Shown: in pieces, positions 44,019-49,517 of the stretch
Layout: each line of letters begins with the position of its first letter
Position numbering within the stretch: the stretch's first letter is position 1
Origin: Actinomycetota bacterium
GTDB lineage: Bacteria; Actinomycetota; CADDZG01; WHSQ01
Length of the DNA: 64,000 bases
Assembly (NCBI GenBank): GCA_030446465.1
Contig: JAUJNI010000001.1
Span: 233,859 to 297,858 of the forward strand
Direction: 5' to 3'
The notes under the pieces: model-generated
What the model was told of the DNA's origin: nothing
The model's input: only the letters and a program-made list of their open reading frames with translations
Database searches by the model: none
Program-made: the position numbers and the translations under genes

Positions 44019-44411
44019 ATGCGTCGCGGCGTTTGTCTTGCACTCGGGCTTTTCGCGTTCGGATTGACCGGCTGCTCTGCCAGTGAGGACAGCGAGGTCT
44101 CGCTGGCTTCAGGACATCGCTTCGAGCCAGAGACCATCACCGTCGAGGTCGGAACGACGGTGACATGGGTCAGCGAGAGCGACGACGCGCACACCGTCAC
44201 TGCCTATGAGGAATCCATACCTGACGCAGCCAGCTACTTCAGCAGCGGAGGCTTCGCCAGCGAAGAGGAGGCGCGGGACGATTTGCCCGGCGCGCTCCTC
44301 AAGAGCGGTGACACTTACGAGGTCACCTTCAAGAGGCCGGGGACCTACGCCTATTTCTGCATCCCCCACGAAAGCGACGGTATGAAGGCCACGGTGATCG
44401 TTCAGGAGTGA
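44019..44411 (+). CDS. Cupredoxin (plastocyanin-like) lipoprotein
   Basis: A 130-aa blue-copper-like protein. Signal peptide with lipobox LTGC (Cys19). The type 1 copper ligands are His58 (DDAHTV) and Cys114, His117, Met122 (FCIPHESDGM), a complete set. Third gene of the oxidase-ZIP-cupredoxin unit, six bases after the ZIP stop. A plausible partner for electron transfer with the oxidase. Its end overlaps tyrA (convergent) by ten bases. Confidence 0.92.
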   Translation: MRRGVCLALGLFAFGLTGCSASEDSEVSLASGHRFEPETITVEVGTTVTWVSESDDAHTVTAYEESIPDAASYFSSGGFASEEEARDDLPGALLKSGDTYEVTFKRPGTYAYFCIPHESDGMKATVIVQE

Positions 44412-45265
44412 GCTCTGAGTAGCTCCGCCAAGACGTGGGGCCCCTGCTCGAGCGCAGCTCCCAACCTGGTCAGCGCATCGAGCAGGTCGTGGAGCGCGCC
44501 GCGCACCTCTGTGGAGTTGGCGGTGAGGAAGCCCGCCACCATGTCGGGATCGCTCCCCGCCAAGCGAGTGGCGCTCAGGTAACCGGTCGAGGTGAGTGCG
44601 CCCGCGATGTCGCGGGTGCCGGCCCCCAGATCCACGGACGCCAGGGCGAAGGCCATCACGTGCGGGAGATGGCTGGTCCGGGCGACCACTCGATCGTGAA
44701 GGTCGGCGTCGATCTCCAGAGGGCTCGCACCCACCGCTCGAACCACTGCCCGGCCCCTTGACAATGCCTCGGGGTCTGGCCGGAAAGGCGTCAGGACGAA
44801 GGTAGCGTCGCGCAACGCCCCCAGCCTGGCTCCGCCCGGGCCCGGCCTCTCGGTGCCGGCCATGGGATGTCCGCCGATTGCATGCACCGAAGCCGGAACG
44901 CTGCGTCGCATCGCGTCGACCACCGCCCTCTTGGCGCTGCCCGTGTCGATCAACGCCGTCCCGGGCCCGAGCTGGGGTCCGAGCTCATCGACCAGCTCCA
45001 CTATTGCGGGGACCGGAGCGGCGAGGATCACGGTGTCGGCCTCGAGCGCTTCCAGCTGTCGCGCCAGGACCCGGTGCCCGGCACCGTGAGACAGGCTCTC
45101 GCGTGCTACCGAAGCGTCCCGATCGAACAGGGTGACCTCGTCGATACTGGCTGTGGCACCGGCACCAACGAGAGCGCATCCCAGCATGGTCCCGACCTGT
45201 CCGGCGCCGATGATGGCGACTGTGCCAAGGCGCGGCTCCGCCGCGGAGGGAGCCGCTTCGGTCAC
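44402..45265 (-). CDS. tyrA: Prephenate dehydrogenase TyrA
   Basis: Oxidatively decarboxylates prephenate to 4-hydroxyphenylpyruvate, the Tyr precursor. The 287-aa protein has NAD-binding GAGQVG (20-25), GGHPMAGTE and HDRVVARTSHLPH with the catalytic His. There is no ACT domain at the C-terminus, so feedback by Tyr is unlikely through that route. The start overlaps the aroF stop by four bases (ATGA). Last gene of the aroH-aroF-tyrA unit. Confidence 0.94.
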   Translation of the reverse strand: MTEAAPSAAEPRLGTVAIIGAGQVGTMLGCALVGAGATASIDEVTLFDRDASVARESLSHGAGHRVLARQLEALEADTVILAAPVPAIVELVDELGPQLGPGTALIDTGSAKRAVVDAMRRSVPASVHAIGGHPMAGTERPGPGGARLGALRDATFVLTPFRPDPEALSRGRAVVRAVGASPLEIDADLHDRVVARTSHLPHVMAFALASVDLGAGTRDIAGALTSTGYLSATRLAGSDPDMVAGFLTANSTEVRGALHDLLDALTRLGAALEQGPHVLAELLRAHS

Positions 45266-46281
45266 CGTGCCGCTGCCCCGATGGCATCGGAGACGCGCCC
45301 CACGTCGACCATTAGATCCGCAAACGACTGTGGGTCGAGGGCTTGGGGGCCGTCAGAAAGGGCCTGCTCGGGGTTGGCATGCACCTCGACTATCAGCCCG
45401 TCGGCGCCCGCCGCCACGCCCGCACGCGCTATCGGTGCGACGAGCTTGGCTCGTCCCGTCGCATGGCTCGGGTCGACAACCACAGGAAGCGAGGTCAGCT
45501 CCTTGAGGACGGGCACTGCGTTGATGTCGAGCGTGTACCGAGTGGCCGTCTCAAAGGTCCTGATGCCGCGTTCACAGACGGCAACATCCTCGTTTCCCCT
45601 CGAAAGAACGTATTCGGCGGCCTGCAGCAGCTCGTCGAGCGTCGAGCCCGCGCCTCGCTTCAACAGGACCGGCCGCCCCTCGTCTCCGACCGCTTGCAAA
45701 AGGCTGAAGTTGGTCATGTTGCGGGCCCCGACCTGAAGCATGTCGGCGTGCTGGGCGACAAGGGGAACATCGGGAGGCGTGACTACCTCCGTGACAACGG
45801 CCATCTCCAGATCGTCGGCGACCCGGCGCAGCATCATCAGGCCTTCTTCGCCGAGCCCCTGGAAGCTGTAGGGCGAGGTGCGCGGCTTGAACGCCCCACC
45901 TCGCAACACCTTTACTCCGGATTCGGCGACCGCGACAGCGGATGCGTGCAGCTGTTCCTCGCTCTCGACCGCACAAGGTCCCGCCATCACCAGCAGTCCC
46001 CCTCCGCCCAGGCGCGCTCCGTTGGCAAAGGTGATCACCCGATCTTCTGGTTGGAAGTCTCGGCTTGCCAGCTTGAAAGGGTGCAGGATGCGAACGACCC
46101 GCTCCACGCCGCTCAGGACCTCGAACAACTCGGCGTCGACGGGCCGTTCGTCTCCGACGACTCCGACAACGGTTCGCTCGATCCCTTTGGAGAGGTGCGG
46201 GCGGAAGCCGAGGGAGCTGACCCGCTCCAGCACTCCGGTCAACTGCTCGTCGGTCGCATGTGACTGCATCACGATGATCAT
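45262..46281 (-). CDS. aroF: DAHP synthase, type I-beta (AroF/AroG-like)
   Basis: Condenses phosphoenolpyruvate and erythrose-4-phosphate, the first step of the shikimate pathway. The 339-aa protein has an N-terminal ferredoxin-like regulatory domain (residues 1-65), then the barrel with AGPCAVES, GGAFKPRTSPYSFQG, LLKRGAG and DPSHATG (metal-binding His). The N-terminal domain is typical of feedback-regulated Gram-positive enzymes. It follows aroH after nine bases. Confidence 0.95.
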   Translation of the reverse strand: MIIVMQSHATDEQLTGVLERVSSLGFRPHLSKGIERTVVGVVGDERPVDAELFEVLSGVERVVRILHPFKLASRDFQPEDRVITFANGARLGGGGLLVMAGPCAVESEEQLHASAVAVAESGVKVLRGGAFKPRTSPYSFQGLGEEGLMMLRRVADDLEMAVVTEVVTPPDVPLVAQHADMLQVGARNMTNFSLLQAVGDEGRPVLLKRGAGSTLDELLQAAEYVLSRGNEDVAVCERGIRTFETATRYTLDINAVPVLKELTSLPVVVDPSHATGRAKLVAPIARAGVAAGADGLIVEVHANPEQALSDGPQALDPQSFADLMVDVGRVSDAIGAAAR

Positions 46282-46290
46282 CTGTTCCTC

Positions 46291-46680
46291 CTAGAAGTCG
46301 TCTTCGGTAACAAGATCGGGACGCAGAGCCGCTGCCCCGCGCAAATAGACGTGACGGATCTCGCTTTGGGATCGGATTGTGTTGCAGAGGAGCAGGACTC
46401 GCAGGCAGCGCGGCACACTCGTGTCGCCTCCGTGCTCGCTCACCATGAGAAAGGGCACGAGCCGCCACCCATGCCGTCGGGCTGCAGCCGAGGGATTCGA
46501 ACCGGCCAGGTCCTCCGGGATCGTGAAGATCGCCGCGGCGATGTCCTCGAGCGCGCAACGGTTAGCGGTGACCAGGGCATCCAGCAACGTGAGCGTGGCC
46601 TCCTCGATGGCTTCCGGGCCGTCTCCTTCAACCGCGATGGCCCCCCGGATCCCCCGGCATGCATTCGTTGCCTGTTCCAT
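46291..46680 (-). CDS. aroH: Chorismate mutase AroH
   Basis: Turns chorismate into prephenate. The 129-aa protein is the trimeric AroH type: RGIRGAI near the N-terminus, PFLMVSEHGG, PRCLRVLLLCNT (catalytic Arg) and IRHVYLRGA (active-site Tyr). The length matches B. subtilis AroH. First gene of the Tyr/Phe unit; its leader contains a reading frame and terminator. Confidence 0.95.
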   Translation of the reverse strand: MEQATNACRGIRGAIAVEGDGPEAIEEATLTLLDALVTANRCALEDIAAAIFTIPEDLAGSNPSAAARRHGWRLVPFLMVSEHGGDTSVPRCLRVLLLCNTIRSQSEIRHVYLRGAAALRPDLVTEDDF

Positions 46681-46701
46681 TCGCTCTCTTTTCGTCTCCC
46701 A

Positions 46702-46734
46702 ATAGAAAAAGCGTGGAGCGGGTGCTCCACGCTT
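46702..46734 (-). terminator. Intrinsic terminator in the leader of aroH-aroF-tyrA (attenuator)
   Basis: On the minus strand AAGCGTGGAGC, loop ACCC, GCTCCACGCTT form a perfect 11-bp stem (46709-46719 with 46724-46734), followed directly by a T-run. It lies 22 nt upstream of the aroH ATG and 24 nt after the leader stop codon, so it stands between promoter and operon. This placement is that of an attenuator. Confidence 0.85.
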
Positions 46735-46758
46735 CTTGGTATCGAATCAGGCGGTTCC

Positions 46759-46848
46759 TTAGCCGATGACGTCTCCCACAGAGCGCGCGAAGCAAGCGTA
46801 CGGATAGTAGGAGTGCAAGCTGCGGGCGGTGTTGCAGACGGTCGACAT
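46759..46848 (-). CDS. Aromatic-amino-acid leader peptide (29 aa)
   Basis: An ATG frame of 29 codons with a GGGGG-type site before it. Residues 13-20 are SYYPYACF: three Tyr codons in four and a Phe three codons later. Such a run is characteristic of leader peptides that sense charged tRNA. It ends before an intrinsic terminator in front of the Tyr/Phe operon. The segment GCTCTGTG (codons 22-24, 46777-46784) can pair with CGTGGAGC of the terminator's 5' arm, including three G-U pairs, so ribosome stalling at the Tyr codons could free an antiterminator. Confidence 0.75.
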   Translation of the reverse strand: MSTVCNTARSLHSYYPYACFARSVGDVIG

Positions 46849-46857
46849 CACGCCCCC

Positions 46858-46886
46858 ATCTTGGGCCCCAAGGGCTCAGACGTCAA
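46858..46886 (-). promoter_or_regulatory. Candidate promoter for the aro leader
   Basis: Minus-strand TTGACG (46881-46886) and CAAGAT (46858-46863) are spaced 17 bases. It would start transcription a few bases before the leader ATG. The -10 match is weak. Confidence 0.45.
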
Positions 46887-46954
46887 CTCGACCTCCACTC
46901 TCCAGTGCTTCTGGTTGCCACTGGAGACAGTTCGATCTAACAGCCCAACAGAGG

Positions 46955-47152
46955 CTACGAACGGCGCGCGGATCGCCAAAGTTGGATTCCCCCAATCACC
47001 CCGATGAGCCCTGCGAGGATTTGCACCACCGTCACGATCGATCGATCACCTGCGACGTAGTCAGAGAGGTTAGCTACGGCTAGAGCGGCCTGAGCGAGAA
47101 CAAACACAGCCCACAGCACAGGTGGTGTGGTCCCGCGTCCCCTTTCCGCCAT
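46955..47152 (-). CDS. Small two-helix membrane protein, unknown function
   Basis: A 65-aa product with two hydrophobic helices (VLWAVFVLAQAALAV and VTVVQILAGLIGVIGGI) joined by an Asp/Tyr loop, and an Arg end. Hydrophobic composition and length fit a genuine small membrane protein. It sits between the PPIase gene and the aro leader on the same strand. Confidence 0.6.
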   Translation of the reverse strand: MAERGRGTTPPVLWAVFVLAQAALAVANLSDYVAGDRSIVTVVQILAGLIGVIGGIQLWRSARRS

Positions 47153-47182
47153 CCGAGCAACGCTACCGAAGTTGAGGGACTC

Positions 47183-48025
47183 CTAGCCTTCTTTGATGTC
47201 GATTGAGTTTATGAACACGGGAACCGTTGGCTGGTCCTTGTTCGCAGGATCGGTCCCGCCCTTCACCGGCACCTGTTGCAGGCGTGCCAGTGTGGCGAAG
47301 GAGGACGGGGATGCTTGCCCGAACAGCGAGTAGAGAGGGTTGAGCCCCGCCGGCTCGGGAGCCGGTTGCCCGGGCACCGGAAGACCCGTCTCGGGATCGA
47401 GCTCCGGAGGGTCGTGGGTGACGAAGAAGAACTGGCTGCCAGAGGTGTTGGGGCCCGAGTTCGCCATGGCCAGAGTGCCGAAGACGTACTCGTCCGGTCG
47501 CTCGGGCAGCTCGTCGGGGAGGGTGTAACCAGGCCCCCCCAGCCCCGTGCCTTGCGGATCCCCTCCTTGAATCACGAAGTCTCGAACGATGCGGTGCCAG
47601 GTCAAGCCGTCGTAGAAGCCCTCTCGAGCCAAGAAGACGAAGCTGTTCACCGTCTCGGGCGCCGCCTGCTCGTCGAGATCCACCTCGATGTCACCGCAAG
47701 AGGTGTGAATGACGGCGCGGTAGTCGACACCCTGCTCGAGCACCTGCTCGGGCTGGTCGTATTGCTGCTTGTCGCCGGCAGGGGGCGTGGCGCTCGAGCA
47801 TCCCTCGGGCAGCCCTGGGGCCTTCTTGCCTTCAGCTCGCGGGGCGGGGGGCTCGTCACCGGCCAGGGCCACGAGCGCGAGCGAGGCGATGATCGCGATG
47901 ACCAGCAGCAGCCCGCCCAGCCTTATGTAGCGCCGGCGCCTCGCTTCGGCGGCCCGTTGAGCTTGGGCCGCGCTGCGCCTGTCCCTCTCACGCTTCTGGT
48001 GTGCTTGTCTCTGCTTGCTTCCCAC
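47183..48025 (-). CDS. Membrane-anchored cyclophilin-type peptidyl-prolyl isomerase
   Basis: A 280-aa protein with a basic, Arg/Ala-rich N-terminus (residues 1-34), one membrane helix (about 35-55) and an extracytoplasmic cyclophilin domain (about 100-270). The active-site Arg is in TWHRIVRDFVIQGGDP and the substrate loop is SGSQFFFVTHDP. The insert GLPVPGQPAPEPAGLNP enlarges the loop. It begins inside the end of accDA (38-bp overlap). Likely assists folding of exported proteins. Confidence 0.9.
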   Translation of the reverse strand: MGSKQRQAHQKRERDRRSAAQAQRAAEARRRRYIRLGGLLLVIAIIASLALVALAGDEPPAPRAEGKKAPGLPEGCSSATPPAGDKQQYDQPEQVLEQGVDYRAVIHTSCGDIEVDLDEQAAPETVNSFVFLAREGFYDGLTWHRIVRDFVIQGGDPQGTGLGGPGYTLPDELPERPDEYVFGTLAMANSGPNTSGSQFFFVTHDPPELDPETGLPVPGQPAPEPAGLNPLYSLFGQASPSSFATLARLQQVPVKGGTDPANKDQPTVPVFINSIDIKEG

Positions 48026-49517
48026 GGTCTCTCCAGCGCTGTCTTCGAGCTTGCGCCAACTCGTTTCCCGACATGTTGGCGAGCCGGTCGAGATGATACG
48101 CGACCACGTTTTTGAGCGAATCAGGCTCGAGTGGCTCGGGGACTACCTCATCAGCGATGCCTAATCTGTGGAGGTCCTGGGCCGTCGGCCTGAGCAGCTC
48201 CGCCGCCTCGGGGGCCCGGGTGGGGTCGCGCCACAGGATCTCGGCAGCCATGTCGGGGCCGATCACAGAGAAGACCGCGCCGGCATAGACAACGAGCACG
48301 TCGGCTGTGGCCAATGCCAGAGCGCCGCCGCTGCCTCCTTCGCCGGTCACCACCGAAATGATCGGGACCGGCGCCGTGAGCATGGAGGTGAACAGCTCGG
48401 CGATGGCCCATGCGATGCCCCCGTTCTCCGACGCCTCGGACGGGTTCGCCCCCGGCGTGTCGATCAGCGTCACGACCGGCAGGTCGAGCCGCACCGCGAT
48501 GGCCACGCAGCGCTGCGCCTTTCGATAGGCCGAGGGCCCGGGCGAGAAGGTCCGGTCGAACGCCATGGCCATGATCCGTCGCCCCTGAAATCGTCCGAGC
48601 GCAACCACCAGGGAGGGATCCTCCCGTCCGGCCCTGTCTCCCTGGAGTACGGCGTGAGCATCCAGGGCGTCTCGGAGGAGGTCGGGCCCCTTGGGTCTCT
48701 CGGCCGACCGCGACGACTGGTACGCGGCCCAGGCATCCGCGGGGGGCTCGGCCTCCTGACCGTGTCCGCCCTTGCCCAGGGGCTCTACCGGCGCACGCCC
48801 GTCGCCAGCATCGGGTGCCAGGACATCGAGGAGATGGGCGACCGTGCGAGCGGCCCGTTCGGGGGGCACGACCGCGTCCACCAATCCCGCGGCAAGGGCG
48901 GTCTCGGCGGTGTGGGAACCGGCCACCGGCCGGCCGGTGAAGCGCTCCACGACCCGGGGGCCGGCAAAGCCGATCGTTGCGCCCTGCTCGGCGATTGTCA
49001 CGTCGGCCGTGGCTGCAAGGCTCGCGAGCACTCCTCCGGTGGTCGGGTGGCCGAGCACCACGATGAATGGCAGGTGTGCTTGCGCAAGCGCGAGCCTGGC
49101 CCCCACCACCTTCGGCATCTGGACCAAGGCCGCCATGCCTTCTTGCATGCGAGCACCCCCCGTGGCTGTTCTCACGACGACCGGCTTGCGTCTCGCGGCA
49201 GCCCGCTTGAGCGCCAGGGCCAGCTGCTCACCGGCGACAATCCCCATGCTTCCGGCGAAGAAGGAAAAGTCGAACATCGCCACCTCGACCTCATGCCCGC
49301 CGATGGTGGCGGATCCGGCGATTACTGCTTCGGTCGCTCCCGAGGCAAGGCGGGCCCTCTCTACGGCGTCACGGTAGCCAGGCCACTTGAGTGGGTCGAC
49401 CGGGCCGTGGTGGCGTCCTGCTGGCTCGAAAGACCCCTCGTCCACGAGCCGTTCGACGGCGGTTGCGCCTCGTTGCTCCACTACCGTCCTTCCCGGGTGG
49501 CCTGGGGGGATACCCAC
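47988..49517 (-). CDS. accDA: Fused acetyl-CoA carboxylase carboxyltransferase AccD-AccA
   Basis: Transfers carboxyl from biotin carrier to acetyl-CoA. The 509-aa chain joins a beta-type half (about residues 15-245, with ATGGARMQEG and FAGPRVVERFTG) and an alpha-type half (about 270-495, with IDTPGANPSEASENGGIA and GEGGSGGALALA). The zinc ribbon of separate AccD is missing: the N-terminus has no Cys. The GTG start lacks a clear ribosome site. The biotin carboxylase and carrier genes are not in the window. Confidence 0.92.
   Translation of the reverse strand: MGIPPGHPGRTVVEQRGATAVERLVDEGSFEPAGRHHGPVDPLKWPGYRDAVERARLASGATEAVIAGSATIGGHEVEVAMFDFSFFAGSMGIVAGEQLALALKRAAARRKPVVVRTATGGARMQEGMAALVQMPKVVGARLALAQAHLPFIVVLGHPTTGGVLASLAATADVTIAEQGATIGFAGPRVVERFTGRPVAGSHTAETALAAGLVDAVVPPERAARTVAHLLDVLAPDAGDGRAPVEPLGKGGHGQEAEPPADAWAAYQSSRSAERPKGPDLLRDALDAHAVLQGDRAGREDPSLVVALGRFQGRRIMAMAFDRTFSPGPSAYRKAQRCVAIAVRLDLPVVTLIDTPGANPSEASENGGIAWAIAELFTSMLTAPVPIISVVTGEGGSGGALALATADVLVVYAGAVFSVIGPDMAAEILWRDPTRAPEAAELLRPTAQDLHRLGIADEVVPEPLEPDSLKNVVAYHLDRLANMSGNELAQARRQRWRDRGKQAETSTPEA

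Follow-up and report, generated by a model that had tools for sequence, protein, structure and literature searches.

In the 64-kb stretch of DNA analyzed here (hereafter the window), a short frame rich in tyrosine codons and a hairpin with a T-run precede the genes aroH, aroF, and tyrA, and the locus raises the question of whether these elements form a switch that adjusts expression of the operon to the supply of tyrosine. The three genes encode a chorismate mutase, a DAHP synthase, and a prephenate dehydrogenase, that is, makers of the amino acid that would be sensed. An earlier note had proposed a leader-peptide attenuator responding to tyrosine at this position, and the conservation of all of its parts in related operons supported the proposal.

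Organization of the leader and the operon

The 29-codon leader, the 24 nt between its stop codon and the terminator stem, the 11-bp hairpin with a T-run, the 17-bp promoter spacing, and the gene order aroH-aroF-tyrA were read directly from the sequence, and the coordinates and description in the earlier note held (Table 1). The aromatic codons of the leader are Tyr14, Tyr15, Tyr17, and Phe20. Its ATG lies 9 nt past the −10 hexamer, with an in-frame GTG one codon upstream, and the leader region is bounded upstream by a small minus-strand frame ending at 46955. The terminator stem, AAGCGTGGAGC-ACCC-GCTCCACGCTT (46734-46709), consists of 11 perfect pairs and is followed by TTTCTATT. The T-run is followed after just about 20 nt by the aroH start codon, an ATG at 46680; the operon promoter must therefore lie upstream, and the polymerase has to pass the terminator.

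Table 1 Features of the aroH-aroF-tyrA locus in the window
Feature	Position	Strand	Description or basis
Promoter-like pair	46886-46858	minus	TTGACG-N17-CAAGAT; read directly from the sequence
Leader frame	46848-46759	minus	ATG, 29 codons and TAA; peptide MSTVCNTARSLHSYYPYACFARSVGDVIG; read directly
Candidate strand 1	46813..46836	minus	In the absence of a covering ribosome, would sequester the antiterminator strand; single-sequence MFE
Candidate sensor codons	46798..46809	minus	Tyr14-Tyr15-Pro16-Tyr17 (UAC UAU CCG UAC); read directly, and folding
Predicted antiterminator 5' strand	46776..46794	minus	UGCUUCGCGC-GC-UCU-G-UGG, codons 19-25; stalled-ribosome folding
Predicted antiterminator 3' strand	46723..46739	minus	CCAAGA-A-GCGUGGAGCA, overlaps the terminator 5' arm; folding
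Intrinsic terminator	46702..46734	minus	11-bp stem, ACCC loop, T-rich tail; −19.7 kcal/mol
aroH	46291..46680	minus	AroH-type chorismate mutase, type I, CM_1, PF07736 (1.8e-34); first structural gene
aroF	45262..46281	minus	Type-Ib DAHP synthase with ferredoxin-like domain, PF00793 and PF18152 (1.8e-75)
tyrA	44402..45265	minus	Prephenate dehydrogenase, PF02153 (2.5e-25)

Among 780 short ATG or GTG frames (8-50 codons) in the 64-kb window, seven contained at least four Tyr, Phe, or Trp codons within eight codons (or at least three Tyr within four), and the aroH leader was the sole frame with at least three Tyr within four codons. It was also the only one of these seven with a terminator within 60 nt; terminator-like hairpins of the same stringency numbered only six in the window. 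Simple consensus scans of the window reported neither the promoter pair, whose −10 hexamer has three of six consensus matches, nor the terminator, which was probably passed over because its stem can be extended by A-T and G-T pairs into the T-run. The silence of these scans is not contrary to the elements described.

No match to class II DAHP synthase (DAHP_synth_2) was obtained in the assembly of the window, and AroF was the only DAHP synthase found there, so that a control point at this operon makes sense. The genome carries four WhiB genes, consistent with Actinomycetota. Prephenate dehydratase (PF00800) gave no match in the same assembly but was present in all 14 control genomes; either the assembly, which is 96% complete, lacks this stretch, or phenylalanine is made by an alternative route.

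Related operons and predicted folding of the leader

The closest AroF proteins (72 and 71% identical) come from two genomes that belong to another class of the same phylum, at loci L058 and L059, both with the gene order aroH-aroF-tyrA; AroH is 59-64% and TyrA 59% identical to the proteins of the window. These two, both from draft genomes, are the only close homologous operons known. Every part seen in the window was found again in both, namely, the promoter, the short frame with an aromatic cluster, the antiterminator complement, and the terminator. L058 has TTGACG-N17-CACCAT, 9 nt, the peptide MSTSMTGSGTFATFGYRWYGRPTPVVKGGIG, and the terminator GACGGCGTGGAGC..GCTCCCCGCCGTT with a T-run, and L059 has TTGACG-N17-CAAGAT, with hexamers and spacing identical to those of the window, 10 nt, the peptide MNAATDLVRSIARTFFFYGWAYTCTPSVSGVAG, and the terminator GAAGGCGTGGAGC-CCG-GCTCCGCGCCTTT with a T-run. 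The terminator 5' arms of all three share GCGTGGAGC, and the leader peptides have little in common outside the aromatic cluster. At the place where UGCUUCGCGC and GCGUGGAGCA are complementary in the window, GGC-CCACGCCG pairs with CGGCGUGG-A-GCC in L058, and CACGCCUUCCGUG pairs with CACGGAAGGCGUG in L059, exactly and over 13 of 13 nt. The three leaders thus differ in the upstream strand but keep its complementarity, the pairing being retained while the strand changes. The earlier note had named loss of the Tyr codons or the terminator from homologous leaders as a reason to abandon the proposal; aromatic codons and the terminator were kept in both relatives, although Tyr was not kept alone, because these leaders mix Phe, Tyr, and Trp, so that conservation applies to aromatic codons as a class. 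Since the arrangement recurs in distant relatives, the attenuator is very likely real.

A match to type-Ib AroF was present in 2 of 16 genomes of the same family, including that of the window, and absent from the other 14. Same-family relatives had no comparable leader ahead of aroH, which in several of them follows an rluB-like frame; because most of these genomes lack type-Ib AroF, their aroH genes are not counter-evidence. It is a reasonable inference that the aroH-aroF-tyrA operon has been transferred between classes.

We then folded the RNA from the ribosome as far as the terminator loop, a state in which the 3' arm has yet to be transcribed; the leading edge of the ribosome was set 12 nt past the first A-site nucleotide. 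A ribosome with Tyr14 or Tyr15 in the A-site gave an antiterminator as the best fold (−27.7 and −27.5 kcal/mol, respectively), in which UGCUUCGCGC (codons 19-22) pairs with GCGUGGAGCA and UCU.UGG pairs with CCAAGA. The earlier note had instead drawn the antiterminator between codons 22-24, GCUCUGUG, and CGUGGAGC and had suspected this pairing of weakness, rightly, because it scored −6.2 kcal/mol, compared with −15.5 kcal/mol for the outer helix UGCUUCGCGC/GCGUGGAGCA alone and about −27 kcal/mol for the whole structure that replaced it. The probability of the antiterminator, as a mean over the terminator 5' arm, was 0.90 with the A-site at codon 14 or 15, 0.73 at codon 16, approximately 0.55 at codon 17, and 0.13 at codon 19. 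The result at codon 14 was stable for leading edges of 9 to 16 nt, and that at codon 15 was lower, 0.67-0.80, only when the edge was set at 14-16 nt. The suggested stall at codons 14-17 therefore stands for Tyr14 and Tyr15, which free the antiterminator fully, and only in part for Tyr17; as Phe20 lies inside the strand, the main sensors are predicted to be Tyr14-Tyr15.

In the ribosome-free leader, the best nascent fold placed the antiterminator strand against codons 5-12 (single-sequence prediction), which would favor the terminator. Folding of the leader, a check that the earlier note had advised, thus gave an antiterminator with a stalled ribosome and a sequestered strand without a ribosome. 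Less favorable to a switch, a ribosome that has reached the stop codon covers the antiterminator strand only toward its 3' end. By prediction, the leader contains a mutually exclusive antiterminator that is freed by a stall at regulatory codons. When the stretch from the ribosome to the terminator was dinucleotide-shuffled, 4 of 100 shuffles matched the probability of 0.90 at Tyr14 of the window, one matched the value of L058, and none that of L059; by minimum free energy, the antiterminator of the window was unremarkable (9 of 100 shuffles equally or more stable). With the full terminator present and the ribosome stalled, the terminator state was better than the antiterminator by 5.1 kcal/mol in the window and by 3.6 to 17.5 kcal/mol in other leaders. 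The terminator is thermodynamically favored at equilibrium in all the folded leaders, and the switch must therefore be kinetic, set by the order of synthesis.

Aromatic leaders upstream of aroF in other lineages

An aromatic-cluster frame was found in 26 of 106 examined upstream regions (2.6 in shuffles), and such a frame together with a terminator in 16 (0.0 in shuffles); the sequences are related and the window locus is counted three times, so these are not counts of independent cases. About nine additional candidates, varied in architecture, came from forty more upstream regions of other families.

The largest set comprised 17 loci of another class (L088-L102, L105, and L107), in which a leader of 17-18 codons of the pattern ..FG.WFFYGG.xPA, for example MRRFFGGRYFFYGGDDPA, lies upstream of aroF. 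As in the window, a promoter (TTGCCA type) 7-11 nt before the ATG, an aromatic cluster, and an antiterminator/terminator complement precede aroF, whereas the peptide and terminator sequences are different and the antiterminator strand spans the conserved last codons. A conserved GTAGTCGCC spans the stop codon, and the terminator CCCCGGGC..GCCCGGGG lies ahead of aroF. The terminator arm carries CCGGGxx, which is complementary to xxCCCGG in the final codons of the leader; 92% of the cells of this outer helix are paired in the alignment of the 17 leaders. Counted across the complete structure, five cells have exchanges on both sides, a number reached by 1 of 500 shuffles; five of the seven pairs of the outer helix are invariant, and the two outer pairs show two-sided exchanges. 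An inner antiterminator helix as drawn for this alignment was off register and unsupported. With the leader, the stop-spanning segment, and the terminator in common, the 17 loci form a conserved family of putative attenuators.

For the window, L057, L058, and L059, the point at which the predicted antiterminator disappears lies between −1 and +3 codons from the final aromatic codon of the cluster. The same fall was seen in most leaders of the 17-locus set, with L091, L093, L097, and L098 giving a less distinct picture at their first aromatic codon. In 20 of 22 leaders, 17 of them beyond the window, L058, and L059, a pair made up of a TTG-type −35 and a NANNNT −10, with a spacing of 17-18 nt, ends 7-11 nt before the ATG. 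The exceptions were L032, a longer leader with AGGAG, and L057, in which the automatic pick was poor and TTGACA-N17-TACAAA, recognized by eye, ends a few nt before the ATG. This geometry puts the transcription start at or beside the ATG, and the leader frames are therefore probably leaderless; the mRNA that carries the window leader, too, is probably of this kind.

Other architectures were also observed. L057, from the class of the window, represents a second architecture within that class, in which the TTGACA promoter, the peptide MKLYFAWWYLGSRSPAAPATTRF, and a GC-rich terminator precede aroF. In a Chloroflexi MAG (L032), the leader upstream of aroF, MALHGSASADRYYWFYRGIT, overlaps a terminator: its last codons and stop (GGGCATAACGTGA) pair as the 5' arm with TCACGTTATGCCC-T6 in a hairpin of 13 bp. 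A stalled ribosome would thus block this terminator directly, and a second one lies behind it. A candidate cyanobacterial aromatic attenuator was seen in a Leptolyngbyaceae cyanobacterium (L049), where the frame MTHSTRYFYFWYFPVHQG and two terminator-like hairpins behind it precede a DAHP synthase gene. In L128, L132, L136, and L133, leaders ending in YWRFS, YWRFT, or WPWRFS precede a long hairpin of the GGCGTCCGG..CCGGACGCC type without a T-run, which is possibly not an intrinsic terminator. L087 carries MATSFWYRSPA with GCAGAGG-CGAGA-CCTCTGC-T6, in a genome with several aroF-like matches and two different aromatic leaders.

Aromatic leaders thus occur ahead of aroF in several Actinomycetota lineages about which little is known, and they are apparently widespread. 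We lean slightly toward a broader reading, in which leaderless aromatic-codon attenuators of the first shikimate enzyme are old and phylum-wide in little-studied Actinomycetota (perhaps also in Chloroflexota and Cyanobacteria), have been rebuilt repeatedly with different peptides and stems, and move with aroH-aroF-tyrA between classes.

Proposed mechanism and comparison with known systems

We consider it highly probable that the element is a ribosome-mediated transcription attenuator controlling aroH-aroF-tyrA. Judging from the promoter geometry, transcription would begin at the leader ATG or just a few nt upstream of it, and a ribosome would translate the short frame behind the RNA polymerase. 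When charged Tyr-tRNA is scarce, the ribosome would stall at Tyr14/Tyr15, codons 19-25 would pair with the terminator 5' arm once it is made, the terminator would come too late, and the polymerase would continue into aroH-aroF-tyrA. With ample tyrosine, the ribosome would cover the antiterminator strand and reach the stop codon, and the terminator would form, ending transcription approximately 20 nt before aroH. The operon is thus probably turned on by tyrosine shortage in this model, and we infer the amino acid sensed in vivo accordingly from the codons.

The same attenuator might respond not chiefly to tyrosine but to phenylalanine through Phe20 or to a mixed aromatic supply, and the mixture of Phe, Tyr, and Trp codons in the related leaders is in keeping with this, as is the Phe-Tyr-Phe leader of Corynebacterium glutamicum, which responds to Phe and not Tyr (PMC11802643). 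We judge it unlikely for the window, in which Tyr accounts for three of the four aromatic codons and a stall at Phe20, within the antiterminator strand, would destroy the antiterminator. Control of the terminator by a T-box, a riboswitch, or an RNA-binding protein, with an incidental leader frame, is highly unlikely: the terminator is clear, T-boxes and protein-controlled leaders also employ antiterminators, and tyrosine genes are under T-box control in other bacteria (PMC1262725), but an Rfam search of 44300-48200 gave no match, a T-box included, up to E = 5, nearly all of the approximately 115 nt from the inferred transcription start to the terminator are occupied by the frame, and the leaders of related operons share aromatic codons within peptides that otherwise differ. 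The thermodynamic preference for the terminator in every state of the window leader would also suit a constitutive partial terminator that fixes the level of the operon, with Tyr codons present by chance; the conservation of the aromatic cluster, the promoter-ATG distance, and the antiterminator complement in L058, L059, and other groups leaves this explanation with hardly any probability. Attenuation by a translating ribosome thus remains the preferred reading. Under this reading, several uncultured lineages place the same logic ahead of the first enzyme of the aromatic pathway, and the strands and codons involved can be named exactly. The element gives a regulatory annotation for the pathway in organisms without genetics, and its counterparts offer natural variants for studying the balance of kinetics and stability in leaderless attenuators.

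Attenuator leaders of Escherichia coli are translated from a Shine-Dalgarno sequence, whereas the window leader is predicted to be leaderless. Regulatory codons, an antiterminator, and an intrinsic terminator are shared with E. coli trpL and pheL (Yanofsky type, as summarized in PMC11802643), although the operons differ. In a comparative study of 2005, Actinobacteria showed no conserved regulation by RNA for operons of Phe or Tyr (PMC1262725), and the literature searched contained no paper on the lineages described here and no account of this breadth. The earlier note had known of no attenuator for such genes in Actinomycetota, but a DAHP-synthase case exists in C. glutamicum aroR-aroF (Neshat et al. 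2014, as cited in PMC11802643; also PMC4046766), which, as described there, resembles the window in phylum, DAHP-synthase gene, aromatic leader peptide, and ribosome-mediated attenuation; compared by description, its Phe-Tyr-Phe differs from the Tyr-Tyr-Pro-Tyr ahead of aroH-aroF-tyrA. Streptomyces lividans leuL, trpL, and ilvL (PMC8079986) and Mycobacterium tuberculosis ilvB1 (PMC13236596) likewise combine, in Actinomycetota, a short frame of regulatory codons with competing terminator and antiterminator, but, compared by description, concern other amino acids and operons; several of the S. lividans leaders are reported to be leaderless, as predicted for the window (PMC8079986). The principle of attenuation is classical and the element in the window is a further case of it, the wider distribution being its most interesting side.
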